From NCBI GenBank assembly GCA_024743215.1, contig JANSWZ010000002.1:186001-250000 (forward strand): a stretch of DNA of 64,000 nt, read 5' to 3'. This document shows, one piece after another, positions 30,023 to 42,758 of this stretch (the first letter of the stretch is position 1; each line of letters opens with the position of its first letter). This DNA comes from Alphaproteobacteria bacterium. GTDB lineage: Bacteria; Pseudomonadota; Alphaproteobacteria; Rhizobiales; GCA-2746425. Position numbers and translations under genes: made by a program. The notes beneath the pieces are model-generated. The model made no database searches. It had not been told where the DNA came from and worked only from the letters and a program-made list of their open reading frames with translations.

Positions 30023-31012
30023 ATGACATTTTTGAAACTGAGCAGACGCGCTTTTGGTGCTCTGACATTTAGTGGGTTGGCCATTGGCGCGGTTGGTTTG
30101 TCACTGGCAGCCATGCCAACGCCTGCAGCGGCTCAATCCTATCCGGAAAAGCCCATCAACATTATTGTGCCAACAGGCCCTGGAAGCCTGGTTGATATTC
30201 TGGCGCGCCTTGTTGGCGATGGCATGACGGAGAATTGGGGCCAGCAGGTCATCGTCAAGAATATTGGCGGTGCCGGCGGCTCTATCGGAGCTGCCAAGAT
30301 TGCAGAAGCAGAGGCTGATGGCTACACGCTTGGTTTTGTGCCAGCGAACCTCACCACGCACCCGTATCTCTACAAGATCAAATATGATGTGCAGGCGGAT
30401 TTTGATCCGGTGATCCGGGTCGCTGGTGCGTCCATGGTGCATTACGTGAACAATGACCTTGGCGTTTCCAGCGTTCAGGAATTCATCGATTATGCCAAAG
30501 CCAATCCCGGCAAGGTGACATTTGCAACAGCGGGCCTTGGCAGTGCCGCCAATCTGGCATCGGAGCTGTTCCAGACCAAAACCGGCGTGAGCATGAAAGC
30601 CGTTCCTTACAAGAAGCTCAATCTTGGTGTTCTGGATGTTGTCGCTGGTCGCGTCTCCACCGTATTTGTGTCGGCTGCACAGGGCATGCAATTTGTCCGC
30701 GATGGCAAGCTGACCGCATTGGGCATCACCGGTCTGACACCCAACCCGGGCGCGCCGGAGTTGAAACCCATCGCGGAACTTGGCGTTCCCGGATATGAGT
30801 TCAAATCCTGGTTCGGCTTTATTACACCGTCGGGTGTTCCATCGGACATCATTGCCAAGCTGAATGCGGAAGTCGTTCGCCAGACAAAGACTGAGGCATT
30901 CCAACAGGCACTTGCAAAGGCCGGGCTGGAACTGATTGCTGGCACGCCTGAAGAATTTGCCGACGTGATTGATGCTGAGCTTGCGAACTGGAAAGGTATT
31001 CTTTCCAAGTAA
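30023..31012 (+). CDS. Tripartite tricarboxylate transporter substrate-binding protein (Bug/TctC family)
   Basis: A 329-residue periplasmic protein with the Bug-family sequence YPEKPINIIVPTGPGSLVDILARL directly after the signal peptide and VIVKNIGGAGGSIGAAKIAEAEADGYTLGF. The signal peptide (about 1-38) contains SRRAFGAL, a plausible twin-arginine motif, before a hydrophobic core ending AAAQS, so export may be by Tat. It captures a carboxylate for the TctA/TctB membrane complex encoded next. Bug proteins typically bind dicarboxylates or aromatic acids. Confidence 0.9.
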   Translation: MTFLKLSRRAFGALTFSGLAIGAVGLSLAAMPTPAAAQSYPEKPINIIVPTGPGSLVDILARLVGDGMTENWGQQVIVKNIGGAGGSIGAAKIAEAEADGYTLGFVPANLTTHPYLYKIKYDVQADFDPVIRVAGASMVHYVNNDLGVSSVQEFIDYAKANPGKVTFATAGLGSAANLASELFQTKTGVSMKAVPYKKLNLGVLDVVAGRVSTVFVSAAQGMQFVRDGKLTALGITGLTPNPGAPELKPIAELGVPGYEFKSWFGFITPSGVPSDIIAKLNAEVVRQTKTEAFQQALAKAGLELIAGTPEEFADVIDAELANWKGILSK

Positions 31013-31089
31013 TCAAGCTGTATTATGGTGCAAGGGCCTGCATTTGGGTGCAGGTCTTTGCTACGGTCTGGACTCAATTGGGAGATTGA

Positions 31090-31572
31090 TTGCAGACCCT
31101 GACTCTCACCAACACTGGGGGGCTTGCGGTGAAGTTATTGACTGACAAGGATTTTGGATCGGGTTTGCTGTTCGCCCTGGCTGGCATCATGGGTCTGGTC
31201 CTGACATCCAGCTTTGAATTTGGATCCACTGCAGAGCCCGGCCCCGGCTTTTTTCCAGTTATACTGTCTACGCTTCTCATTCTGATTGGCATCGCAGTGG
31301 GGCTTGGTGTTTTGCTGCGTGACGCTGATCCGATTTCGGCAATAGCGATCCGGCCCTTCTTGTTGATCACCTGCGCAGTCATCGTTTTTGCTGTGTGCAT
31401 TGAGCCCTTTGGTCTGATGCCGTCGGTGTTTGTCACGGCCATTGTTGCCAGCTTTGCCCGAGCCAATTATGGCTGGGTTCACCGCATTCTGGCTGCAACT
31501 GGCCTCGCCTTTTTCAGCGCGCTTTTATTTATTGGTGCCTTGAAACTGCCTGTCGCCCTCTGGTCATTTTGA
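31090..31572 (+). CDS. Tripartite tricarboxylate transporter small membrane subunit (TctB family)
   Basis: The start is TTG at 31090, with GGGAG five bases upstream; GTG near 31129 is an alternative. The 160-residue product has four hydrophobic helices (about 22-40, 57-77, 87-125, 135-158) and the GSTAEPGPGFFPVILS motif after the first helix, diagnostic of TctB. It is the small permease subunit and lies 10 bp upstream of the TctA gene. Confidence 0.85.
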   Translation: MQTLTLTNTGGLAVKLLTDKDFGSGLLFALAGIMGLVLTSSFEFGSTAEPGPGFFPVILSTLLILIGIAVGLGVLLRDADPISAIAIRPFLLITCAVIVFAVCIEPFGLMPSVFVTAIVASFARANYGWVHRILAATGLAFFSALLFIGALKLPVALWSF

Positions 31573-31582
31573 GGGGCATGCC

Positions 31583-33088
31583 ATGGAACTGATCAACAAT
31601 CTCAGCCTCGGTTTCAGCACAGTCTTAACCGGCCAGAATCTGCTCTTTTCCTTTTTCGGCGTCTTGCTGGGAACGCTTATCGGTGTGCTTCCCGGCCTTG
31701 GGCCATTGGTGGCCATCGCTGTCTTGTTACCCTTTACCTTCGGGCTTGATCCCGTGTCCTCCATGATCATGCTGGCTGGGATTTTCTACGGCGCACAATA
31801 TGGTGGCTCGACGACAGCCATTCTGATCAATTTGCCGGGAGAAGCCTCTTCCATTGTTACGACGCTGGATGGCCACGAAATGGCGAAGCGCGGACATGCC
31901 GGAAAGGCACTGGCGACCGCAGCCATCGGGTCTTTCTTTGCCGGATGTGTGGCCACGGTTCTGATTGGCGTCTTCGCACCGCCCCTTGCAGAGCTTGCCT
32001 TTCAGTTTGGCCCAGCTGAATATTTTTCCCTTATGGTTTGCGGACTGATTGTCTCTGTCGTGCTTGCAAATGGTTCCGTTCTGAAAGCCATCGGCATGAT
32101 GGTCTTTGGTCTGTTACTCGGTCTGATCGGCACTGATGAAATGACGGGCCTTCAGCGCATGACACTGGACATTCCTGAACTTTCGGACGGGTTGAGCGTT
32201 GCCGCTATTGCCATGGGCATTTTCGGCCTCGGCGAGATCATGCGCAATCTGGAAGATACCACCAAACGCGAATTCAGCGTGTCAAAAATTACAAGCCTGA
32301 TGCCGACACGGCATGATCTGAAACTCATTTTTGCGCCCATGGTCCGAGGCACGTTTCTGGGCTCATTTCTGGGTGTGTTGCCCGGCGGCGGAGCGCTGCT
32401 GGCTTCCTTCTCGGCCTATGCGCTGGAAAAGAAAATCGCCAGGGATCCCAGCGCATTCGGAGAAGGTGCCATTCAGGGTGTAGCTGCGCCGGAATCGGCC
32501 AACAATGCCGGTGCGCAAACCTCCTTCATTCCCATGCTGACCCTTGGCATTCCCTCCAATCCGGTGATGGCGCTGATGATCAGCGCTCTGATCATCCAGG
32601 GGATTGAGCCTGGCCCTGCCGTGATTACCGATCACCCGGAATTGTTCTGGGGTATTATTGCTTCCATGTGGATCGGCAATCTGATGCTTCTGGTTCTCAA
32701 CCTACCGCTTGTGGGCCTTTGGGTGAAGCTGGTGTCCATCCCCTATAAATTTCTGTTTCCGATTGTGATCGTGTTTGCCTGTGTGGGTGTCTTCAGCGTC
32801 AACAACACCGCCTTTGCCGTGCTGACCATGGCAGCCTTCGGAGTGCTTGGCTATGTGCTGAAAAAGCTGGAATGCGAGGCAGCTCCCATGATCCTCGGTT
32901 TCATTCTGGGGCCCATGATGGAAGGACATATGCAACGGGCTTTGCTGATCTCGGGCGGCGAGGTTTCTGTCTTTGTGCGCGAGCCAATCAGTGCCGGGCT
33001 TCTGATCGTTGCTGCCATTGCGTTGGTTGCTGCCGTGCTGCCGTCGGTTCGGAAAACAAGGACAATTGCGCTGGTGGATGAGGATTAA
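31583..33088 (+). CDS. Tripartite tricarboxylate transporter large permease (TctA family)
   Basis: A 501-residue protein with about 11-12 membrane helices, matching TctA length. Signature segments are LIGVLPGLGPLVAIAVLLP and YGAQYGGSTTAILINLPGEASSIVTTLDG, with the repeat counterpart GSFLGVLPGGGALLASFSAYALEK and GVAAPESANNAGAQTSFIPMLTLGIPSNPVMALM. GAGGGGCATGCC precedes the ATG. It forms the ion-driven uptake channel with TctB and the binding protein, independent of ATP. Confidence 0.94.
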   Translation: MELINNLSLGFSTVLTGQNLLFSFFGVLLGTLIGVLPGLGPLVAIAVLLPFTFGLDPVSSMIMLAGIFYGAQYGGSTTAILINLPGEASSIVTTLDGHEMAKRGHAGKALATAAIGSFFAGCVATVLIGVFAPPLAELAFQFGPAEYFSLMVCGLIVSVVLANGSVLKAIGMMVFGLLLGLIGTDEMTGLQRMTLDIPELSDGLSVAAIAMGIFGLGEIMRNLEDTTKREFSVSKITSLMPTRHDLKLIFAPMVRGTFLGSFLGVLPGGGALLASFSAYALEKKIARDPSAFGEGAIQGVAAPESANNAGAQTSFIPMLTLGIPSNPVMALMISALIIQGIEPGPAVITDHPELFWGIIASMWIGNLMLLVLNLPLVGLWVKLVSIPYKFLFPIVIVFACVGVFSVNNTAFAVLTMAAFGVLGYVLKKLECEAAPMILGFILGPMMEGHMQRALLISGGEVSVFVREPISAGLLIVAAIALVAAVLPSVRKTRTIALVDED

Positions 33089-33210
33089 CCCTGAAATCTG
33101 CGGCCTTACCGCAGCACTCCATGCAGTCCGATTGCCGGCAGTGGCGCGCCACTTTAGAATGTGTTTTACGAATGCCGGACCCATACACTCATCGGAGCGT
33201 TTCCCGTTCA

Positions 33211-33999
33211 ATGACCAAATCCCGTCCCTTGCCAAACATCATGGTGGCACCCAATGGTGCGCGCAGAACCAAGGCAGATCATCCGGCTATTCCCTTGACA
33301 CAGTCGGAACTGGTTGAAACAGCGATTGCCTGCCACAAGGCAGGTGCAGATGGGATACATCTGCACATCAGGAACCAACAAGGGCTGCATCTGCTGGATG
33401 CAGCGGGCTATGCGCAATTGCTTGAGGCGCTCTTTGTTACCGTTCCGGACATGTATCTTCAAGTGACATCAGAAGCGGCCGGTCGCTACGAAACCGCCGA
33501 CCAGATTGCCATTGTGCGCGCCCTGAAGCCGGATCATGTTTCTGTTGCACTGAGAGAAATGGCCCCCTCGCCTGAGGCCTGGCCCGCTGCCCGGGATTTT
33601 TATCATTGGGCAGAAGAAGCCAACGTTGCGATCCAGCACATTCTCTATACCCCCAAGGAAGTCGCAATGTTTCTTGGCGCATTGGACGAGGGCAAAATTC
33701 CCGGCACCCATCATTTGCTGCAGTTTGTTCTGGGCGACTATCAGGGCACGCAAATCAGCCGCCCCGATAATATACAGCCCCTGCTTGATCTGTTGGGCGG
33801 CTCTGGCACCGCCCATACATTCGACTGGATGCTGTGTGCCTTTGGACGCGAAGAGACAGACTGTCTGACAGAAGCTGTCAGACTGGGTGGGAAGGTCCGC
33901 GTCGGCTTTGAAAACTCACTCTGGAATCAAGATGGTTCACTGGCTGCTGACAATGCCGAGCGGGTTCGTGAAATTTTGCGATCCGTTCGGGCCTTGTGA
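33211..33999 (+). CDS. BKACE-family beta-keto acid cleavage enzyme
   Basis: I place the start at the ATG at 33211 (262 residues); the longer frame from 33121 adds unrelated sequence. PNIMVAPNGARRTKADHPAIPLT and HKAGADGIHLHIRNQQG contain the P-N-G-A-R and HLHxR segments of the family; the latter holds metal ligands. BKACE enzymes condense a beta-keto acid with acetyl-CoA and release acetoacetate plus a new CoA ester; Kce in lysine fermentation is the founding member. This belongs to the shorter branch. Its place 122 bp after tctA suggests that it degrades the imported carboxylate or its keto derivative. Confidence 0.82.
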   Translation: MTKSRPLPNIMVAPNGARRTKADHPAIPLTQSELVETAIACHKAGADGIHLHIRNQQGLHLLDAAGYAQLLEALFVTVPDMYLQVTSEAAGRYETADQIAIVRALKPDHVSVALREMAPSPEAWPAARDFYHWAEEANVAIQHILYTPKEVAMFLGALDEGKIPGTHHLLQFVLGDYQGTQISRPDNIQPLLDLLGGSGTAHTFDWMLCAFGREETDCLTEAVRLGGKVRVGFENSLWNQDGSLAADNAERVREILRSVRAL

Positions 34000-34028: not shown

Positions 34029-34976
34029 CTACTCGATTGTCTTGCGCAAAAGCACAAGATTGTCGAGCACCAGATTGGTTGACCAGATAAAGTCTGCATC
34101 CGCATCGGGCGTATCAAAAACATCCACAAAATTTGTGAAGCTTTTTTTGTTGTCGACGCCAACAGTTTCATTTGTGTAGGTGGAGGCATAAGGCCAGATG
34201 CTGTCGTCAAAACTGGGCATCATCCACGTTTCAGGAATGGCCCAGTGAGCGGCGGAAAAGCCAGTAGCATCGTTGACACCTTCCTGATCGCAGGTGGAGC
34301 TGTCCCGCAATGGACCGCTTACAACGAGGCAAGTGCGGTCCTTAAGCGGCGCTGTGTAAAAGGTCTGCGCGCGCCAACTGGAATCTGTCAGGGCAACGGT
34401 TTCACCGGATGAATCCTGAATATGGGCCACGAGGCCGCCATCGCCCGGATGATGGCTCGCACTGCGATTGGCCTCTGAGCCAAGGCCCAGATTTTCCTCC
34501 CAATCAACCATCATCACCGCAATGGTCACCGGACGGTCTGCGGAAAAACGAATTACATTTGAGTTGAATGGCGTGAACGGAACTGGATCGACCGCCAGCA
34601 ATTCGCCATTTACATAGAATTCAAAATAATTGTCTGCAAAGATATAGGCGGTGAATTCCTCATCGCCGCCCGCATCCATCAATGGAACATCTGCCAGGTC
34701 AAGGTCTGAAAGAGACCCAAGCTGGATGCCGCCACACTCATTGTACAAATCAGTTGCTTTTGGAGCTGTTTCAAAGTTGGTCGCTGCCGGAACAGTCCAA
34801 ACTGTACCGTCATCGGCCGCAATCTCTCCCACAGGGCTGATGCGAGATCTGTTCCCACAATCAATGAGGCCAGGATTGGTCGTTTCCGCCGGACCGGTTG
34901 TGAAGCTTGGTTCCTGTGCAAAAGCAGCAGGTGCGAGGGTGCAGAGAAAGACAATTGGGAGGGTAGCATTGAACAT
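34029..34976 (-). CDS. Secreted protein of unknown function, possible galactose-binding-like domains
   Basis: A 315-residue protein with a clear Sec signal peptide (1-20, ending AAFAQ). I do not recognise the family with certainty. Visible features are several aromatic beta-rich segments, YIFADNYFEFYVNGELLAVDP (a carbohydrate-binding jelly-roll-like blade), and W-x-MPSFDDSIWPYAS, reminiscent of the DDSxW pattern of galactose-binding-like domains in glycosidases. Cys residues near 41 and 80, and a pair near 213 and 226, could form disulfides. No catalytic motif is visible. It is monocistronic, convergent with the BKACE gene and divergent from the decayed cation-transporter gene. A periplasmic or surface ligand-binding role is an inference. 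Confidence 0.6.
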   Translation of the reverse strand: MFNATLPIVFLCTLAPAAFAQEPSFTTGPAETTNPGLIDCGNRSRISPVGEIAADDGTVWTVPAATNFETAPKATDLYNECGGIQLGSLSDLDLADVPLMDAGGDEEFTAYIFADNYFEFYVNGELLAVDPVPFTPFNSNVIRFSADRPVTIAVMMVDWEENLGLGSEANRSASHHPGDGGLVAHIQDSSGETVALTDSSWRAQTFYTAPLKDRTCLVVSGPLRDSSTCDQEGVNDATGFSAAHWAIPETWMMPSFDDSIWPYASTYTNETVGVDNKKSFTNFVDVFDTPDADADFIWSTNLVLDNLVLLRKTIE

Positions 34977-35057: not shown

Positions 35058-35380
35058 GTGAATTCAAAAGGAATGACGCTTGGGAAGACATTGGCAGGAC
35101 ATCATCACATAGACCCCGATGCTGGCGATACACATGTATTCTGGGCTGTGGTCATCAATCCGGGCCTTGCAATTGCTCAGATCATTGGCGGGGTTTTGTC
35201 TGGCAGCCTGGCATTGCGGGCTGATGCCTTACCTAATTTTCCGACGCCATATCTCTGATCATTGCGTTTGCCGCGCGCAAGATCGGGCGCCGCCCGGCAG
35301 ATGAAGCCATGACTTTTGGCTATGAGGCGGCCGGTCAAGCCGACAAACCCCATCACGATGTGGATCACGAACAGACTTGA
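35058..35380 (+). pseudogene. Cation diffusion facilitator (CDF/CzcD-type) transporter remnant
   Basis: Frame 1 from GTG 35058 encodes an N-terminus (GHHHIDPDAGDTHVFWAVVINPGLAIAQIIGGVLSGSLALRADAL) that matches CDF proteins closely up to the second helix, including the HHHxD metal segment and the ADAL motif. Loss of one T after TTTT near 35240 shifts the frame; in the frame starting at 35252 the family sequence resumes as SLIIAFAARKIGRRPADEAMTFGY and then jumps to a His/Asp-rich C-terminal tail HHDVDHEQT with stop at 35378-35380. About 200 or more central residues are missing. So there is both a one-base frameshift and a large in-frame deletion: the gene cannot make a working Zn/Co exporter. 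Confidence 0.85.
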
Positions 35381-35413: not shown

Positions 35414-36193
35414 CTATTTATCCTGAAGGATGCCCCACCGGCGCACGGTCATGGTTTCCAGTTTGCGGAACAGGAAACGGTCCATCACGAGCCAGATGAC
35501 GCCCACGATAATCATACCCAATATGACCGTCTCGGTCTGATACCATTGCACGGCATCCAGGGTCATGTAGCCAAGCCCCGTGGTTCCAGCGATGAGTTCT
35601 GCTCCAATCAGCGCGCGCCAGCCAAATGCCATGGATGAGCGAAAGCCAACAATCAACTGCACAAAGGCACCGGGTATGATGACTGTTTTCAGAATGTCAA
35701 ACCGGCTTGCTCCCAGGGAGAGGACGGCTCGGTAATAGGCCTGCGGTATGGATTCAACGCCGATCACCGTGTTGTAGAGATTTGAGAAGAAAATAATGTT
35801 GGCAATCACGAAGATGATGGCCCCATCGCCAATGCCAAACCATAAAACGGCCAGCGGAATCCAGGCGATGCCTGCAATCGACTGGAGGAATGTCAGCAAG
35901 GGCAACAGAAAATCAGACGCATGTCTGTTGACGCCAATGGCGATGCCAATTGGGACTGCCAGCAGATTTCCCACAATAAATCCAAGCGCCAGCCGATAAA
36001 GACTTACCAGAATATGTTGCAACAGCGATCCATCGCCGGTGAGTTCAATTGCTTTGGTCCAGACAAGCTGCGGTGATGGCAGCTTGTAAGCTGGCACAGA
36101 CAGCAGTGAAGGCAGCACTGTCCACAATATCAAAATGCCGATAAAGGGCGTCGCGGCGAGCAAATATGGCCTGAGTTTGAGAGTTTTCATCAT
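35414..36193 (-). CDS. Nitrate/sulfonate/taurine-type ABC transporter permease (second of pair)
   Basis: Start at the ATG at 36193 (ATGATG, overlapping the upstream stop by 4 bp); 36232 is the longest frame. About 259 residues with six membrane helices and the EAA loop YYRAVLSLGASRFDILKTVIIPGAFVQLIVG. A following segment FRSSMAFGWRALIGAELIAGTTGLGYM is typical of SsuC/TauC-like permeases. It is the last gene of the third ABC operon. Confidence 0.9.
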   Translation of the reverse strand: MMKTLKLRPYLLAATPFIGILILWTVLPSLLSVPAYKLPSPQLVWTKAIELTGDGSLLQHILVSLYRLALGFIVGNLLAVPIGIAIGVNRHASDFLLPLLTFLQSIAGIAWIPLAVLWFGIGDGAIIFVIANIIFFSNLYNTVIGVESIPQAYYRAVLSLGASRFDILKTVIIPGAFVQLIVGFRSSMAFGWRALIGAELIAGTTGLGYMTLDAVQWYQTETVILGMIIVGVIWLVMDRFLFRKLETMTVRRWGILQDK

Positions 36194-37017
36194 TGGACCT
36201 CGCGCTGCTCGGCCGTTGTGACCAAGCCCCATTTTTGAATGGTGGCGCGCTCAAAGGGGCGCAGATAGGCCAGTTCGATAATCAGCCACAACAGCCCCAT
36301 GATAATCATGCCTACAATGGTTCTGTCGGTCTGCTTGTTGGCCGCACCATCGAAAATCAGAAAGCCGATACCTGATGTGGCGGCAATGGCTTCAGCAATG
36401 ATGAGGCCACGGAATGCAAAGCCGGCACCAATGCGAAAACCGGTTACAATGCTTGGCAAAACACCGGGCAGAATAACTTCTCTGAGGATCTGCCAGCGGG
36501 TAGCGCCAAGTGATCGGGCCGCATTTACATAGACGATTGGCAGCGTCTGAATACCGGCCAGAACATTGTAGAGAATGGGAAATGCGACCACGAAGATCAG
36601 CAACGTCAATATGGTCGTGATGCCATAGCCAAACCAGATGACGAAGACGGGCAGCCAGGCCGATTCAACAATTGCATAAAAGAACCCGACCAAGGGTGCG
36701 AAAACCGCGGCAATGGCCTTGTTCAGGCCAAGTGCAAGCGCAACGCCAATGCCCACAAGTGAGCCAAGAAAGACGCCGACCACATAGCGGTAGAGACTGT
36801 CCAGAAGATAGACCTCCAGAATGCCCTTATGCATCATATCCCGAAATGCGTTGTAGACATCGACTGGCGCCGGGAAGAAATAGGAACTGACTCCGGACAC
36901 GCTGGCACCGATCTGCCAGGCAATGAACAACACAGCGATACCTGTGATCCCTTTGGCGGCCTTGATGCCACGCTTGGCGAATTGCCCATGTAAGAATGGC
37001 TTATTCACTGGCATCAC
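36190..37017 (-). CDS. Nitrate/sulfonate/taurine-type ABC transporter permease (first of pair)
   Basis: A 275-residue six-helix permease with the EAA loop YVNAARSLGATRWQILREVILPGVLPSIVTG and a following FRIGAGFAFRGLIIAEAIAATSGIGFL segment. The N-terminal 20 residues are basic and cytosolic. It overlaps the small membrane protein gene by 17 bp and the second permease by 4 bp. The two permeases in this operon are only distantly alike, suggesting a heterodimer. Confidence 0.9.
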   Translation of the reverse strand: MMPVNKPFLHGQFAKRGIKAAKGITGIAVLFIAWQIGASVSGVSSYFFPAPVDVYNAFRDMMHKGILEVYLLDSLYRYVVGVFLGSLVGIGVALALGLNKAIAAVFAPLVGFFYAIVESAWLPVFVIWFGYGITTILTLLIFVVAFPILYNVLAGIQTLPIVYVNAARSLGATRWQILREVILPGVLPSIVTGFRIGAGFAFRGLIIAEAIAATSGIGFLIFDGAANKQTDRTIVGMIIMGLLWLIIELAYLRPFERATIQKWGLVTTAEQREVQ

Positions 37018-37348
37018 CCTGCTCTTCTTCCCAGGGGGAAATGGACGAGATCCATGGTTTATTGGCCAGAGCCTTCAAATTATCCGTTGTGACATCGCGA
37101 AGATATACATTCATATCGTCTACCCGCATCAATCTGCCGGTCGCTTGCAAACGGGTCATGTGAAAGGATTCCGGTTCAAAGTCGAGGCTTGCGATGATGG
37201 CGTATTTTCCATCTGGTTCTGTCTTGAGACCATCGAGTTTCTGATCGCCCATTGACGCGCGATGTTGTGAAATGAAGAGCACGCCAAGCAGGATCAACGA
37301 CGTTGTCAGGATTGGCGGTTTCAGCAGCAGTCGCATCCAGCTCATCAA
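37001..37348 (-). CDS. Small membrane-anchored protein inside ABC operon, unknown function
   Basis: A 115-residue protein that I do not recognise. Residues about 8-26 form a single hydrophobic helix (signal anchor), followed by an exported or cytosolic domain with the alternating pattern FHMTRLQATGRLMRV-DDMNVYLRDVTTDNLKALANKPWISSI, which reads as beta-alpha-beta-beta-alpha-beta, a ferredoxin-like plait. The C-terminus is acidic. The gene overlaps the ATPase stop by 4 bp and the permease start by 17 bp, so it is translated as part of the transporter. An accessory or regulatory transporter subunit is an inference. Confidence 0.75.
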   Translation of the reverse strand: MMSWMRLLLKPPILTTSLILLGVLFISQHRASMGDQKLDGLKTEPDGKYAIIASLDFEPESFHMTRLQATGRLMRVDDMNVYLRDVTTDNLKALANKPWISSISPWEEEQGDASE

Positions 37349-38136
37349 GCTGCATCCTGTCGGACCAGCCGCGTGATTTCGTCACGCAATGCCTGGAAAC
37401 GTGGGTTTGAATTCAGTGACGACAGATCGCGATCTTTGCGTTCAATATCGATATCGACCATTGCCTTGATCTCGCCCGGCCCAGATGACAGAACCATAAC
37501 CCGGTCGCCGAGGAATATGGCTTCTTCCACACTGTGGGTAACGAAGAAAACGGTTACTTCGGTCTGCTGCCAGATGCGGACCAGTTCTTCCTGCAGTGTC
37601 ATGCGGGTTTGCGCATCTACTGCCGCAAAGGGCTCATCCATCAGCATCACTTCCGGTTGGTTGGCCAATGTGCGGGCCACGGCTGCACGCTGACGCATGC
37701 CGCCGGAGAGTTGATGGGGATATTTGGCTTCCGCGTCGGCCAGACCGCACAGAGCCAGATGCTCGCGGGCAATCTTGTCGCGCTCTGCCTTTGACATGCC
37801 TCTGAATTTCAGGCCCAGACCGACATTGTCCAATACGGTTTTCCACGGCAGCAATGCGTAATCCTGAAACACCACCCCGCGATCAGCACCCGGTCCTTCG
37901 ATCTGCTTGCCATTCAGCTTTATGGAGCCGCCCTGCGGGGTCAGAAACCCAGCAATTGCTGCCAACAGCGAGGATTTTCCGCATCCACTGGGTCCCACGA
38001 CAACCAGAAACTCATTGGCGCTTACCTCCAATGTGACATCCTTGACGGCCAGATGCGGCTCGGCAAAATCTTGATTGGTGTAAGCGATGGACGCGTTATC
38101 GACCGATATTTTGGGGAGTTCTTTATTCACAATCAC
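37345..38136 (-). CDS. Nitrate/sulfonate/taurine-type ABC transporter ATP-binding protein
   Basis: A 263-residue ABC ATPase with Walker A GPSGCGKSS, Q-loop VFQDYALLPWKTVLDNV, signature LSGGMRQR, Walker B VMLMDEPFAAVD and H-loop FFVTHSVEEA. SsuB/TauB type. It lies 58 bp downstream of the binding-protein gene and is coupled by 4 bp to the small membrane protein. Confidence 0.93.
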   Translation of the reverse strand: MIVNKELPKISVDNASIAYTNQDFAEPHLAVKDVTLEVSANEFLVVVGPSGCGKSSLLAAIAGFLTPQGGSIKLNGKQIEGPGADRGVVFQDYALLPWKTVLDNVGLGLKFRGMSKAERDKIAREHLALCGLADAEAKYPHQLSGGMRQRAAVARTLANQPEVMLMDEPFAAVDAQTRMTLQEELVRIWQQTEVTVFFVTHSVEEAIFLGDRVMVLSSGPGEIKAMVDIDIERKDRDLSSLNSNPRFQALRDEITRLVRQDAA

Positions 38137-38194: not shown

Positions 38195-39226
38195 CTAGTT
38201 TTTCAAATCGTCGGTGATTGGCTTCAGATCATCAAAGAATTCCGGAGCCTGCTCCATGGCAAAATTGATGAACTGATGATCGACCACTTCGTCCAGATCA
38301 ATTTCATCACGAAGCTTGCCGGCAGCTTTCAGACCGGGAATGGTTTTTTCCCGATACATGTCAACAGTGTAACGAGACATACGCGGGTCATTCAGACCAT
38401 TACGCATGGCAGACTTCATGACATTGGCATCCTTGATGTTGATCCAACGCAGGCTCACTTCGGCGGCTTCATCAAGGTTCTCACGAACCCATTGTGACGC
38501 TTCAGAGAATGCCAACATGAAGCGGCGGAGTTGCTCGGCCTTTTCGTTGACAACAGCTCTGGTTGTCAGAACAGTACCCGGATCGTAACAGGACTCGCAC
38601 TGACCAGCGATCAGCTGCTTGGCGCCTTCAACATTGACAACGCTTGTGGACAGCCAAGGTTCCCAGACGGAAATCGCATCGACATCACCGTTCAAAAGCG
38701 CGGTTGGCAGTTCAGGTGGCTTGACGTTGATCAACTCAACATCATCACCAGTCAGGCCAGATTGAGCGAGCAAGCCCAGGACGTAGCCTTCTGCGCCAGT
38801 GCCACGCGGCAATCCGATGCGTTTGCCCTTCAAATCTTCGATGGAATTGATACCGGCTGCAGAGGCAATGCCGACATTGTCGACATAATTGTCCTTCAGC
38901 GCATCACCATGAAGATGACCAATCAGCACCAACGGAAAGCCGTTTGATGCACCCGACAGGAACGGAATTGATCCCATTGTGTTGACATCATGCGCCCCGG
39001 CCAGCAAGCCGTTGATCATTTCAACACCGGTTTGAAACATCACGATTTCTGCATCAAGACCATGTTTTTCAAACAGGCCCTGCTCTACTGCCACAAAAAT
39101 TGGTGCATGCAGTGTTCCACCTGCTGCGGCAATTTTCAGCTTCAGAGTGTCCTGCGCAGTTGCGGCCCCTCCGCCGAGCAACAACGCCACCATGGCGAAG
39201 CGCATTAATTTGAGTATCATATTCAT
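38195..39226 (-). CDS. Nitrate/sulfonate/taurine-type ABC transporter substrate-binding protein
   Basis: A 343-residue periplasmic binding protein with a Sec signal peptide (1-24, ending ATAQD). Lobe 1 shows LKIAAAGGTLHAPIFVAVEQGLFEKHGLDAEIV and the hinge region DLKGKRIGLPRGTGAEGYVL. One pair of Cys, in GQCESCYDPG (around 205-208), is unusual for this family and could bind a metal or form a disulfide. It is the first gene of the third ABC operon. Its ligand is unknown, but the family favours small anions, sulfonates, amino-sulfonates and heterocycles. Confidence 0.88.
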   Translation of the reverse strand: MNMILKLMRFAMVALLLGGGAATAQDTLKLKIAAAGGTLHAPIFVAVEQGLFEKHGLDAEIVMFQTGVEMINGLLAGAHDVNTMGSIPFLSGASNGFPLVLIGHLHGDALKDNYVDNVGIASAAGINSIEDLKGKRIGLPRGTGAEGYVLGLLAQSGLTGDDVELINVKPPELPTALLNGDVDAISVWEPWLSTSVVNVEGAKQLIAGQCESCYDPGTVLTTRAVVNEKAEQLRRFMLAFSEASQWVRENLDEAAEVSLRWINIKDANVMKSAMRNGLNDPRMSRYTVDMYREKTIPGLKAAGKLRDEIDLDEVVDHQFINFAMEQAPEFFDDLKPITDDLKN

Positions 39227-39351: not shown

Positions 39352-39996
39352 TCAGGCCAGCCCCGGTTCTTTTCCAAGTGCTCTGGCTTCCGAGATACAA
39401 AGATGCTCATTCAGGGCAGCTGCTGCAGCCGCGCGGTCATCTACAATCAAGGCATCCAGTATTTTCAAATGCTCCTGCATGGCCGGTAAAACGCGTGAGG
39501 CAATGAAGCGGCGATTCAGGCGAACCATGCGCACCTTATCGCTGTTCCGACCATGTATCTGGGTCAGCAGATCATTCCCGATGGCGGCTATCAGTCCGTC
39601 ATGGAAGGCCCAATCGGCTTTGTAGGCATCTTGCAGCAGGATCTCGTCAATATTGGTTTCTGCCCTCACGGCAACGCTTTTTGTCCAGTTGCGGATTTCC
39701 TGCAATTCCGGCCAGCCATTGTCTTTGAGCTCATAACAAGCCTGCACTTCCAGGAACCGGCGCACCTGAAATGCGTTGGTGATAAAATCCCGGTCGACCT
39801 TGGCGATGCGAACACCCTTTTTGGGAAGCAACTCAACCAGACCTTCGCTTTCAAGCTGCCGCAAGGCGTCGCGTAAGGGACTGATTGAGACGTTCAATCC
39901 ATCACATAATTCCTGAATCGATAGAAACTGTCCGGGATGCAATTGCTCGGCAAACAGTGATTCCTTGAAGGCTGCATAGGCGTTTTCGCGAAGCAA
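39352..39996 (-). CDS. GntR-family regulator with FCD domain
   Basis: I choose TTG at 39996 (214 residues), with GGAGAGGA seven bases upstream; the frame extends to 40101, but that would put a promoter palindrome inside the gene. Residues 1-65 form a GntR winged helix (LSIQELCDGLNVSISPLRDALRQLESEGLVELLPKKGVRIA), and about 75-205 an FCD ligand-binding domain with the metal-binding pattern DWAFHDGLI, and EHLKILDAL. Divergent GntR regulators next to uptake operons commonly control them; here it lies upstream of the ABC operon in the same direction, 125 bp from the binding-protein start. Effector unknown. Confidence 0.85.
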   Translation of the reverse strand: MLRENAYAAFKESLFAEQLHPGQFLSIQELCDGLNVSISPLRDALRQLESEGLVELLPKKGVRIAKVDRDFITNAFQVRRFLEVQACYELKDNGWPELQEIRNWTKSVAVRAETNIDEILLQDAYKADWAFHDGLIAAIGNDLLTQIHGRNSDKVRMVRLNRRFIASRVLPAMQEHLKILDALIVDDRAAAAAALNEHLCISEARALGKEPGLA

Positions 39997-40024
39997 ATTC
40001 AGGTCCTCTCCCAATAAAATTTCT

Positions 40025-40038
40025 TGTAAAATTTTACA
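40025..40038. promoter_or_regulatory. 14-bp perfect palindrome upstream of GntR gene
   Basis: TGTAAAATTTTACA is a perfect 14-bp palindrome lying 29-42 bp upstream of the chosen TTG start of the GntR gene. FCD-type regulators bind short palindromes of this form, so autoregulation is likely. Its position argues against the longer start codon at 40101. Confidence 0.6.
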
Positions 40039-40195
40039 TGAAATATCAAAGCGTATGGAATGAGTCAATGCCCGACCTTCCGACTTGCTCCGGTCTGCCA
40101 CCCGATTTTAGCGCGGGTGTTTTTTTGAAATACATCCCCTGGCTTATCTGCCGGCATCTAAGCCATGGTTTAAAACTGCTGTTGAAATCTTCCGC

Positions 40196-40246: not shown

Positions 40247-41227
40247 GTGAGGGCGATTTTGCGTAACGCAACGGCAACAGCGTTGATTGATCATTTGCAT
40301 ACGCAGGATCAAATGCGCGTTCAGGATGGTTTTCAGACAAAAGTCGGGACCAGTTTACCCGCTGCGCTGAATGCACAGCTGGTCCCTGCCAGCCGCTTGC
40401 TGCCCAACAGCCAGACTGTTGCAGAAGATGAATTGTCAGCCTTTTTTGACGCTGGCCTGCCGCCCGGCAGCCTGCATGAAATACGCTGCGCGCACAGCCG
40501 TGATGCGGGGGCTTTGGCAGGGTTTGCAATGGCCTTGTTGAGCCGGATGAACCAACACGCGGCGAAACCGGTTTTATGGATATCGGCACCTTTTGCCGAT
40601 ACCAGCAATATGAGTCTGTTCCCGCAAGGTCTTGCCAATCTGGGCTTTGATCCTGACCGCCTTGTCATTGTCACACCACTCAGTGTGAAACACGCTTTAT
40701 GGGCGGCAGACGAGGCTGCCAAATGTACCGATCTGGCGGCTGTCATCCTGCATATTCAGGGCCATCCCAGAACATTTGATATGACCGCGACGCGGCGTTT
40801 GAACCTGCGGGCCAGTGAAAGCGGAACCAGCGTTCTTATTCTGCGACAGAGCAGCGAAGAGGAAGCCAATGCAGTCATAACACGGTGGTGCATCAAGCCA
40901 CGCCTGTCCTGCCAGTTAGACATGCATGGCAGCCCGAAGCCCGATGCAGGCATTGGTCATACCGCATTTTTCGCTCATCTGGAGCGCAACCGACAAGGGG
41001 CGACCGGAGCTGCCTCTGCCACATGGAACCACCAAATTCGAGGCTTTTGCCATGTCCGACACAAAGATCATATCCACGAACAATCAGGGGCACAATCAAG
41101 CCGCCAGTCAGGGCAAGGGACAGCGCTTCCTCAGCATCGCCTTCCCCTATCTGCCAACAGATCGGATCAGCCGTCAGATATGGGGAAAATCGTGGCGCTT
41201 CCAACAAAACTGGAACGGGCAGGCTGA
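40247..41227 (+). CDS. imuA: ImuA, mutasome accessory protein (RecA/SulA-like)
   Basis: A 326-residue frame starting at GTG 40247, with AGGA seven bases upstream. Residues about 50-235 are ImuA-like: VPASRLLPNSQTVAEDELSAFFDAGLPPGSLHEI and a RecA-like core with PVLWISAP and LFPQGLANLGFDPDRLVIVTPLS. ImuA recruits the ImuB-DnaE2 translesion polymerase during SOS. The last 58 residues overlap the imuB start region in another frame by 176 bp, and their sequence shows no family conservation, so the original stop seems lost or bypassed. The SOS box directly upstream supports DNA-damage induction. Confidence 0.85.
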   Translation: MRAILRNATATALIDHLHTQDQMRVQDGFQTKVGTSLPAALNAQLVPASRLLPNSQTVAEDELSAFFDAGLPPGSLHEIRCAHSRDAGALAGFAMALLSRMNQHAAKPVLWISAPFADTSNMSLFPQGLANLGFDPDRLVIVTPLSVKHALWAADEAAKCTDLAAVILHIQGHPRTFDMTATRRLNLRASESGTSVLILRQSSEEEANAVITRWCIKPRLSCQLDMHGSPKPDAGIGHTAFFAHLERNRQGATGAASATWNHQIRGFCHVRHKDHIHEQSGAQSSRQSGQGTALPQHRLPLSANRSDQPSDMGKIVALPTKLERAG

Positions 41228-42758
41228 CTGCCCGCCCCTTGCCGTCATCGCTTCCATTAAAAGTGCCTTGCGCCTGTCCGCGTTAAACCAGACAGCCAGA
41301 CAAGCCGGATTGCATAAAGATCAGACCCTGACAGATGCACGGGCCATTTTGCCAAAGCTGGACTGTCATGAATCCGATGATGCGGCCGATGCCGCGCTTC
41401 TGGAAGCCATTGCTGACTGGTGCGAGCGCTACACACCGCTGTTGTCCATCGACACGATCAATGGCCTGCCCGGCCTGATGCTGGACATCACCGGCTGTGC
41501 GCATCTGTTCAAAGGCGAGGAGACGTTGCGTCTGGATATGATCTCCAGCCTGAATGCCCAGGGTTTTGTCACCAACATTGCCATTGCCTCCACACCGGGG
41601 GCTGCCTGGGGCATTGCCCGCTACGGGAACGTAGGCGATAGCCGTATCGCGGCCCCCGGCACAGAGCGGGACCACGTCGCGCCCCTGCCCCTTGAGGCCC
41701 TGCGCATGGACCCGAAAACTGTTGAGGAACTGAAGCAGGTCGGGTTGAAAACCGTTGGCTGCATCATGGATTTGCCACGCGGGCCGCTATCGCTGCGGTT
41801 TGGCAGGCACTTGCTGCGCAGGCTTGATCAGGCGCTTGGCCGCGAAGAGGAAACCATTTCACCGCGCATGGCTGTGGCAGAACTTGCATCTGAACGGCAA
41901 TTTGTTGATCCGATCTCGTTGCAGGATGATATCAGCCGCAGCATTTTATCGCTTGCGGGTAATCTGAAACCTGTTCTGGAAAAGCGCGCGCTTGGCGCAC
42001 GGGTTCTGGTCTTGAAGCTGTTCCGGGTGGATGGAGAGCGCCGCATGCTCAGCGTTGTCACAGCCAATCCGGAACGCGAGCCTGCCCATATTGAGCAGTT
42101 ATTTCAGGATCGGCTTGTCAGTTTGCACAGCCCTTTGGAAGCCGGTTTCGGATTTGATCTGGTCCGTCTGGAAATTGCCACATCGGAGCCCATGCTTGAT
42201 CAGCAGGCTGATTTTGTTGCCAAAGTACCGATGGAAGACAGCTATAACGCGCTCATCAACCGGCTTGGCGCGCGCCTTGGCACAGACCGGGTCCAGCATT
42301 TCACCATGAATGACAGCCATATTCCGGAGCGCAGCTTTGGGGTTCTGCCGTCCATTCGCAGGCCCAACCAAAAAGGCCAGCCAAGACATAGACATCAAAA
42401 CATGCGGGCACAGGCGGCGCTTTCCCTGACAGATGCGGAGGATATGGAAGAGCTGGATACGCAACTGACGCGGCCAATCCTGCTGCTGAACCAGCCTGAA
42501 CCTGTGGATGTGATTGCCGAGATACCTGAAGGCCTGCCGCAACGCTTTCGCTGGCGCAAAGTGCTGTATGAGGTTGCCGCCAGCGAAGGGCCGGAGCGGA
42601 TTGCCTGCGAGTGGTGGCGCGATGGCCGTCAGGCGCTGACGCGGGATTACTTCAAGACCGAAGACCGTGAAGGCCGGCGGTTCTGGCTGTTCCGTCAGGG
42701 ATTGTATGAGCGGGAAGCCGGACGCCCGCATTGGTATATGCACGGGCTGTTCCCGTGA
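41052..42758 (+). CDS. imuB: ImuB, catalytically inactive Y-family polymerase-like protein
   Basis: Start at the ATG at 41052 (568 residues); an upstream frame to 40926 lies in imuA. A Y-family fold is recognisable from FLSIAFPYLPTDRISRQIW, where active Y polymerases have metal-binding aspartates (DMDAF-like); the second acidic motif region reads SIDTINGLPGLMLDITGCAHLF. ImuB bridges DnaE2, ImuA and the beta clamp. The C-terminal WRDGRQALTRDYFKTEDREGRRFWLFRQGL is the conserved tail. It overlaps imuA by 176 bp and dnaE2 by 4 bp. Confidence 0.9.
   Translation: MSDTKIISTNNQGHNQAASQGKGQRFLSIAFPYLPTDRISRQIWGKSWRFQQNWNGQADCPPLAVIASIKSALRLSALNQTARQAGLHKDQTLTDARAILPKLDCHESDDAADAALLEAIADWCERYTPLLSIDTINGLPGLMLDITGCAHLFKGEETLRLDMISSLNAQGFVTNIAIASTPGAAWGIARYGNVGDSRIAAPGTERDHVAPLPLEALRMDPKTVEELKQVGLKTVGCIMDLPRGPLSLRFGRHLLRRLDQALGREEETISPRMAVAELASERQFVDPISLQDDISRSILSLAGNLKPVLEKRALGARVLVLKLFRVDGERRMLSVVTANPEREPAHIEQLFQDRLVSLHSPLEAGFGFDLVRLEIATSEPMLDQQADFVAKVPMEDSYNALINRLGARLGTDRVQHFTMNDSHIPERSFGVLPSIRRPNQKGQPRHRHQNMRAQAALSLTDAEDMEELDTQLTRPILLLNQPEPVDVIAEIPEGLPQRFRWRKVLYEVAASEGPERIACEWWRDGRQALTRDYFKTEDREGRRFWLFRQGLYEREAGRPHWYMHGLFP

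Follow-up and report, generated by a model that had tools for sequence, protein, structure and literature searches.

A candidate accessory subunit encoded within one branch of SsuABC/TauABC-like ABC importers

ABC importers of the SsuABC/TauABC group occur widely, and textbooks describe them as needing only a binding protein, a permease and an ATPase, with a single permease gene being the rule in TauC or SsuC systems. What an additional single-helix subunit contributes to an ABC transporter has been asked chiefly for metal importers and for LptC, a component of an exporter. An operon in the window, by which we mean the whole 64,000-nucleotide alphaproteobacterial stretch analyzed here, combines an importer of this general kind with a small open reading frame (ORF) and so raises the question of whether the small gene encodes a further component of the transporter. 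If it specifies a conserved extra subunit, then the annotation of this branch, its expression in foreign hosts and its structural study all omit a part, and the branch would allow the contribution of a single-helix subunit to an importer to be tested directly.

Layout of the operon and coding status of the small gene

The small ORF sits between the ATPase gene and the first permease gene, in an operon that also contains a second permease and a binding protein (Table 1). Pfam models identify BPD_transp_1 permeases, an ABC_tran ATPase and a binding protein of the NMT1/SsuA family, the last of which also scores above the TIGR01728 cut-off (174.5 bits against 163.5). The importer thus resembles the SsuABC, TauABC and NrtABC (NitT/TauT) systems in its NMT1/SsuA binding protein, BPD_transp_1 permeases and TauB/NrtD-like ATPase, but differs from them in having two different permease genes, a point missing from the initial annotation, and a conserved small protein predicted to be bitopic. 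For both window permeases, the NCBIfam TauC, SsuC and NtrB models all score below their own cut-offs.

Table 1. Positions of the importer operon, its regulator and the coded segments of the small protein in the window
Feature	Positions	Strand	Evidence and remarks
GntR/FCD regulator gene, upstream of operon	39352..40101	-	PF00392 and PF07729
Substrate-binding protein gene, NMT1/SsuA type	38195..39226	-	PF09084, E 2.7e-26
ABC ATPase gene	37345..38136	-	PF00005, E 3.8e-32
Gene for the small, predicted bitopic protein, 114 aa from ATG 37345	37001..37345	-	Alternative start TTG 37348, giving 115 codons
Codons of predicted membrane helix, residues 10-35	37241..37318	-	AlphaFold2, hydropathy
Codons of signature F-x-P-E-x-F-H, residues 56-62	37160..37180	-	Alignment
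Codons of predicted beta-alpha-beta-beta-alpha-beta domain, residues 47-104	37034..37207	-	AlphaFold2
Permease gene 1	36190..37017	-	PF00528, E 8e-24; GTG start, later starts possible
Permease gene 2	35414..36193	-	PF00528, E 1.8e-20; start set by comparison with a congener (L006)

The initial annotation had described an ORF of 115 codons at 37001-37348 on the minus strand, overlapping the ATPase gene by 4 bp and the permease gene by 17 bp. All three statements agree with our analysis when the ORF is read from the TTG at 37348 and permease 1 from the GTG at 37017. Because the ATPase gene ends at 37345, the first overlap is 4 nt with the TTG start and 1 nt with the ATG. The GTG of permease 1 is kept in a congener (genome G002), although start codons further in are possible, and the congener has the same layout at both junctions of the small gene.

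The G002 ortholog of the small protein is 75% identical to that of the window. In its own frame, comparison of the two genes gives a pS of 0.645 and a pN of 0.140, corresponding to a dN/dS of about 0.10, and the five other frames are interrupted by stops. The equivalent dN/dS values for the ATPase and permease 1 are 0.04 and 0.07; the small protein evolves faster than these partners, yet is clearly constrained. Purifying selection and conservation rule out a spurious ORF.

Distribution of the small gene and its partnership with one importer branch

A search with a single sequence detected the small gene in 5 of 61 genomes, the window's own included, and overlooked it in G036, from which it was recovered with a profile; with a profile built from five members, it was detected in 11 of 385 genomes belonging to the class. 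These many-genome searches score only 6-12 first-look candidates per genome, and absences in them are not proof. In addition, 84,980 species, each represented by a single genome, were scanned with a pattern, which yielded 87 relatives among 141 pattern matches; 80 of the 87 were analyzed as loci. Because the scan relied on a single pattern around PE[RSA]FH, its counts are minimum values, and the motif is invariant partly because of how the members were chosen. Judged by record title, the relatives include members of Alpha- and Betaproteobacteria, of Haloactinopolyspora (Actinomycetota), and of bins named Rokuibacteriota and Armatimonadetes; for two of these four phyla the evidence comes from metagenome bins, and a record with the label Bacillus carries an unverified flag. 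On an Agrobacterium plasmid the gene is annotated as a hypothetical protein.

The initial annotation had asked whether homologues always lie in operons like SsuBC/TauBC. Across 91 loci (80 from the pattern scan and 11 from the class profile search, the window itself being L091), importer genes, and permease genes in particular, adjoin the small gene in every one. The ATPase gene directly precedes it in 87 of the 91, and in 70 of those 87 the two genes share 4 nt at the ATPase stop; the remaining four, in a wider view, read binding protein-ATPase-permease-permease-small. One locus (L033) has no in-frame ATG, GTG or TTG start for the gene. Two permease genes are visible in 83 loci; the other eight end early, and for five of these, wider loci or searches reveal two permeases. 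The commonest gene order is permease-permease-ATPase-small-binding protein, that of the window is binding protein-ATPase-small-permease-permease, and a third is binding protein-permease-permease-ATPase-small. Where the order is ATPase-small-permease-permease, the binding protein gene is divergent (L012 and L013) or comes last (the Agrobacterium plasmid).

Co-occurrence follows the same lines. A permease profile built from ten small-gene loci, the window's included, gave 12 matches of 343-373 bits among 398 genomes from the phylum. They come as pairs in six genomes (G000, G039, G218, G575, G698 and G779), with the next best match at 214; a profile of the small protein, run over the same 398 genomes, found the gene in exactly these six. 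Among 250 genomes of the class, six have the permease pair (314-368 bits) and all six have the small gene. In a set of 30 chosen genomes, all 22 permease matches of at least 302 bits fall in the 11 genomes known to carry the small gene, and the next scores 219. The genome samples of these searches overlap, and only part of the candidates in each genome is scored. When the binding protein of the window was searched against 61 genomes, 7 contained a match with an E value of 1e-30 or lower, and six of these have the small gene; in the seventh (G038) a related binding protein (E 2.4e-34) occurs with one permease, and the small gene was not found. Nor was it found in G113, which has one permease of 224 bits. 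G290, a genome in 460 contigs in which neither the small gene nor a partner permease was found, has a 298-bit permease fragment of this branch and so stands against the pattern, but the fragment runs off a contig end, and the genome was left out of the counts. The small gene was not found where the importer branch was not found.

As controls, 36 loci with lower-scoring permeases (L128-L139 and L149-L172) were searched with the small-protein profile at E values up to 1, without a match; the absence in L149-L172 carries little weight because these stretches stop about 1.5 kb past the permease. Three other stretches (L146-L148) show no small gene because they end before it, and it is present in those genomes. 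Six of the controls (L128, L129, L130, L131, L139 and L156) contain two permease genes without the small gene and represent further two-permease branches of the superfamily. The small gene as a general need of two-permease importers is rejected on the basis of these six operons. The link to importers of this type, as first annotated, holds for one two-permease branch and fails for importers of this type in general.

In a quick permease tree, 58 permeases from loci with the small gene are separated from 42 control permeases with a support of 87, which is below the starred level of 95. The first permease of the window groups with the second permease of Bradyrhizobium-type loci; therefore, the order of the paralogues is swapped between these types. 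Distances among the small proteins track those of their four partners (r 0.92-0.94 over 36 loci, with 0 of 1000 permutations as high), and these correlations indicate that the five genes have travelled together. The small gene is inherited with the other four through several gene orders; its coding is conserved, and its genomic partnership with the importer is consistent.

Neighbourhood and co-inheritance fit a subunit, an assembly factor or a regulator alike. The main rival to a subunit is an assembly or stability factor, the helix of which would pair the two permeases or shield them from proteolysis and take no part in the transport cycle. The close association of the gene with a two-permease branch and the coupled start codons would suit a role in making the complex, as would the apparent differences in substrate between loci. 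However, a stabilizing helix alone needs no conserved extracellular domain with nearly invariant residues, and other two-permease operons do without the small gene, so we regard this explanation as unlikely, if the most serious of the alternatives. The reading that we prefer, and consider probable from the genomic and sequence comparisons, is that the small protein serves as an accessory subunit dedicated to one distinct SsuABC/TauABC-like importer branch, composed of a binding protein, two different permeases, an ATPase and the small protein itself.

Sequence, topology and predicted fold of the small protein

No Pfam, NCBIfam or PDB-sequence family covers the small protein. The window sequence matches nothing in NCBIfam at E values up to 0.1; its only Pfam match, to Sensor_TM1 (E 0.055), is below the cut-off, and a sequence search of the PDB returned just two antibody light chains (E 0.93 and 0.97). 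When 49 members were compared with families, the matches were scattered and confined to single members, the strongest being to DUF6186 (E 8.7e-4, in 1 of 49), which we take as chance. None of the 49 matches the CbiN family or LptC. The absence of a Pfam or NCBIfam family, the importer neighbourhood in 91 of 91 loci and the 4-nt overlap in 70 of 87 together make a previously undescribed transporter component, as the initial annotation had put it, the best reading. No such importer subunit is described in the literature that was searched by title and abstract opening, mostly non-subscription and without preprints.

Nine residues are invariant in the 49 aligned members: L54, F56, P58, E59, F61, H62, Q67, G70 and W98. 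The wider set (L006-L100) comprises 95 loci and 93 distinct proteins. In eight loci found by profile (L092 and L094-L100), PERFH is kept in seven and reads AEQFH in L096, and N replaces Q67 in L097-L100. The alignment points to an F-x-P-E-x-F-H motif that, with the Q, G and W, is nearly invariant.

In hydropathy profiles of the 49 members a single stretch, close to the N-terminus, is membrane-like (its best window scores 1.90 on average), and none of the 49 has another window exceeding 1.4, in agreement with the single helix of the initial annotation. Likewise, the ferredoxin-like plait that it predicted is recovered by AlphaFold2 (pLDDT 90 for the window protein), which places the membrane helix at residues 10-35, followed by a strand (47-54), a helix (60-69), two strands (71-76 and 79-86), a helix (87-94) and a final strand (99-104); the model of a Bradyrhizobium member has a matching plan. 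The flank N-terminal to the membrane stretch is more positive than the C-terminal flank in 44 of the 49 members and ties with it in four. The charge bias places the C-terminal domain outside in most members, so that an N-in, C-out orientation is probably the correct one; the topology of the window member rests on the family, because its own flank charges are tied. A different reading of the N-terminal stretch is that it is a signal peptide, with the domain set free in the periplasm to assist the binding protein. In the alignment, the hydrophobic stretch is followed by small residues in many members, as might be expected of a cleaved protein, but the predicted helix continues through residue 35 or 37 in the two models, and we consider cleavage very improbable.

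No PDB entry reaches E 0.001 in Foldseek; the best row (E 0.084) is a prodomain of the subtilisin type, as are many of the rows that follow it. VIA-align superimposes the window model on ProN-Tk-SP (3afg) with a Z of 8.9 (rmsd 2.5, 76 aligned) and the Bradyrhizobium model with a Z of 8.1 (rmsd 2.3, 74 aligned), values for which a common arrangement may suffice; prosubtilisin E is next. The predicted fold may accordingly be nearest to that of Inhibitor I9/subtilisin prodomains, which it resembles in the order of strands and helices and in the leading rows of both searches; unlike them, the small protein is membrane-anchored and encoded in importer operons. No member matches Inhibitor_I9 (PF05922) up to E 0.1 among the 49, and PF05922, sought in 26 genomes for a comparison profile, gave one match, too few for a profile.

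Proposed role and surroundings of the importer

The enzymes encoded beside the importer differ in the five loci examined: an RraA-like protein with KDPG aldolase (L087) or with PfkB (L017), a sulfatase with an M24 peptidase (L011), a GMC oxidoreductase (L010), and a molybdopterin dehydrogenase, upstream, with a formyl transferase containing an ACT domain (L102). The best PDB relatives of three of the binding proteins are binders of the sulfonate, nitrate and taurine types, with weaker THI5-like and other rows. The initial annotation had suggested a subunit that might sense ligand or gate transport. The neighbouring enzymes bear on the idea that the small protein regulates the importer, as a brake or a ligand sensor, its prodomain-like domain blocking or sensing on the periplasmic side. 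Subtilisin prodomains inhibit their proteases, the predicted fold may be nearest to theirs, and the flank charges make a periplasmic placement likely. However, the likeness in fold is weak and shows no function by itself; the differences among neighbouring enzymes argue against a sensor of one particular substrate, and these varied enzymes, taken with a nearly invariant patch, are ill-suited to a sensor of different ligands. A regulator is, in our judgment, improbable.

For an accessory subunit, we can outline how it might act. The bitopic protein would begin with a short segment in the cytoplasm, cross the membrane with one helix and end in a ferredoxin-like domain on the periplasmic side, and it would assemble with the permease pair, aided by translation coupled to that of the ATPase and the following gene. 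The helix could pack against the permeases, and a short linker after K36 would hold the domain close to the membrane, with the F-x-P-E-x-F-H/Q/G/W patch facing the site where the binding protein docks; docking or release of the binding protein would thereby be coupled to the transport cycle. From its predicted location and its conservation, the small protein probably acts at this periplasmic face. A more tentative extension, which we hold to be less likely than not, is that throughout the importer branch, in at least four phyla by name, the small protein is an obligatory fifth component, a bitopic protein whose prodomain-like periplasmic domain lies above the permease heterodimer and grips or frees the binding protein, in a cycle unlike that of the textbook importer.

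Other ABC systems offer partial parallels. The Cbi/NikMQO metal importers have, to our knowledge, no classical binding protein. Their small membrane components CbiN, NikN and NikL are tied to particular branches, and CbiN and NikN have two membrane domains according to the published account (PMC2667541), in contrast to the one membrane segment of the small protein (49 of 49 members). In LptC, as described in PMC11458178, a membrane helix enters the interface of the two permeases of LptB2FG, and the protein has a periplasmic domain and is needed for productive transport. The likeness to LptC is of layout only, a helix with a periplasmic domain: LptB2FG is a lipopolysaccharide exporter, whereas the small protein partners an importer, and the periplasmic beta-jellyroll of LptC contrasts with the mixed alpha/beta ferredoxin-like plait that AlphaFold2 gives in two models. 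CbiN/NikN and LptC show that an ABC system can depend in some way on a small partner in the membrane.

Several features of the surroundings can be recorded. In L101 and L102, loci from relatives within the class, the small gene is the last of the importer and is followed by an ORF, which in L102 is the formyl transferase with an ACT domain, presumably PurU-like; the surroundings of these two loci hint at a substrate that yields one-carbon units. Near the operon of the window, the stretch 30023-33999 (plus strand) holds three ORFs that we take to be tripartite tricarboxylate transporter-like (tctC, tctB and tctA) and, after them, a BKACE gene (PF05853). A secreted-looking protein of 315 aa (34029-34976, minus strand) has no Pfam match at the cut-off (glycosyl hydrolase 2 N-domain, E 0.12), and the congener (L006) has an ORF resembling it close to its own importer. 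Positions 35100-35323 (plus strand) hold a gene remnant that matches, in two reading frames, only residues 6-80 of an intact 323-aa copy in the same congener (L006, 8202-9173), a protein that we assume to be related to cation diffusion facilitators. Beside the regulator of the operon, at 40247-42758 (plus strand), are ORFs that appear to us to resemble the ImuA/ImuB pair of SOS mutagenesis.
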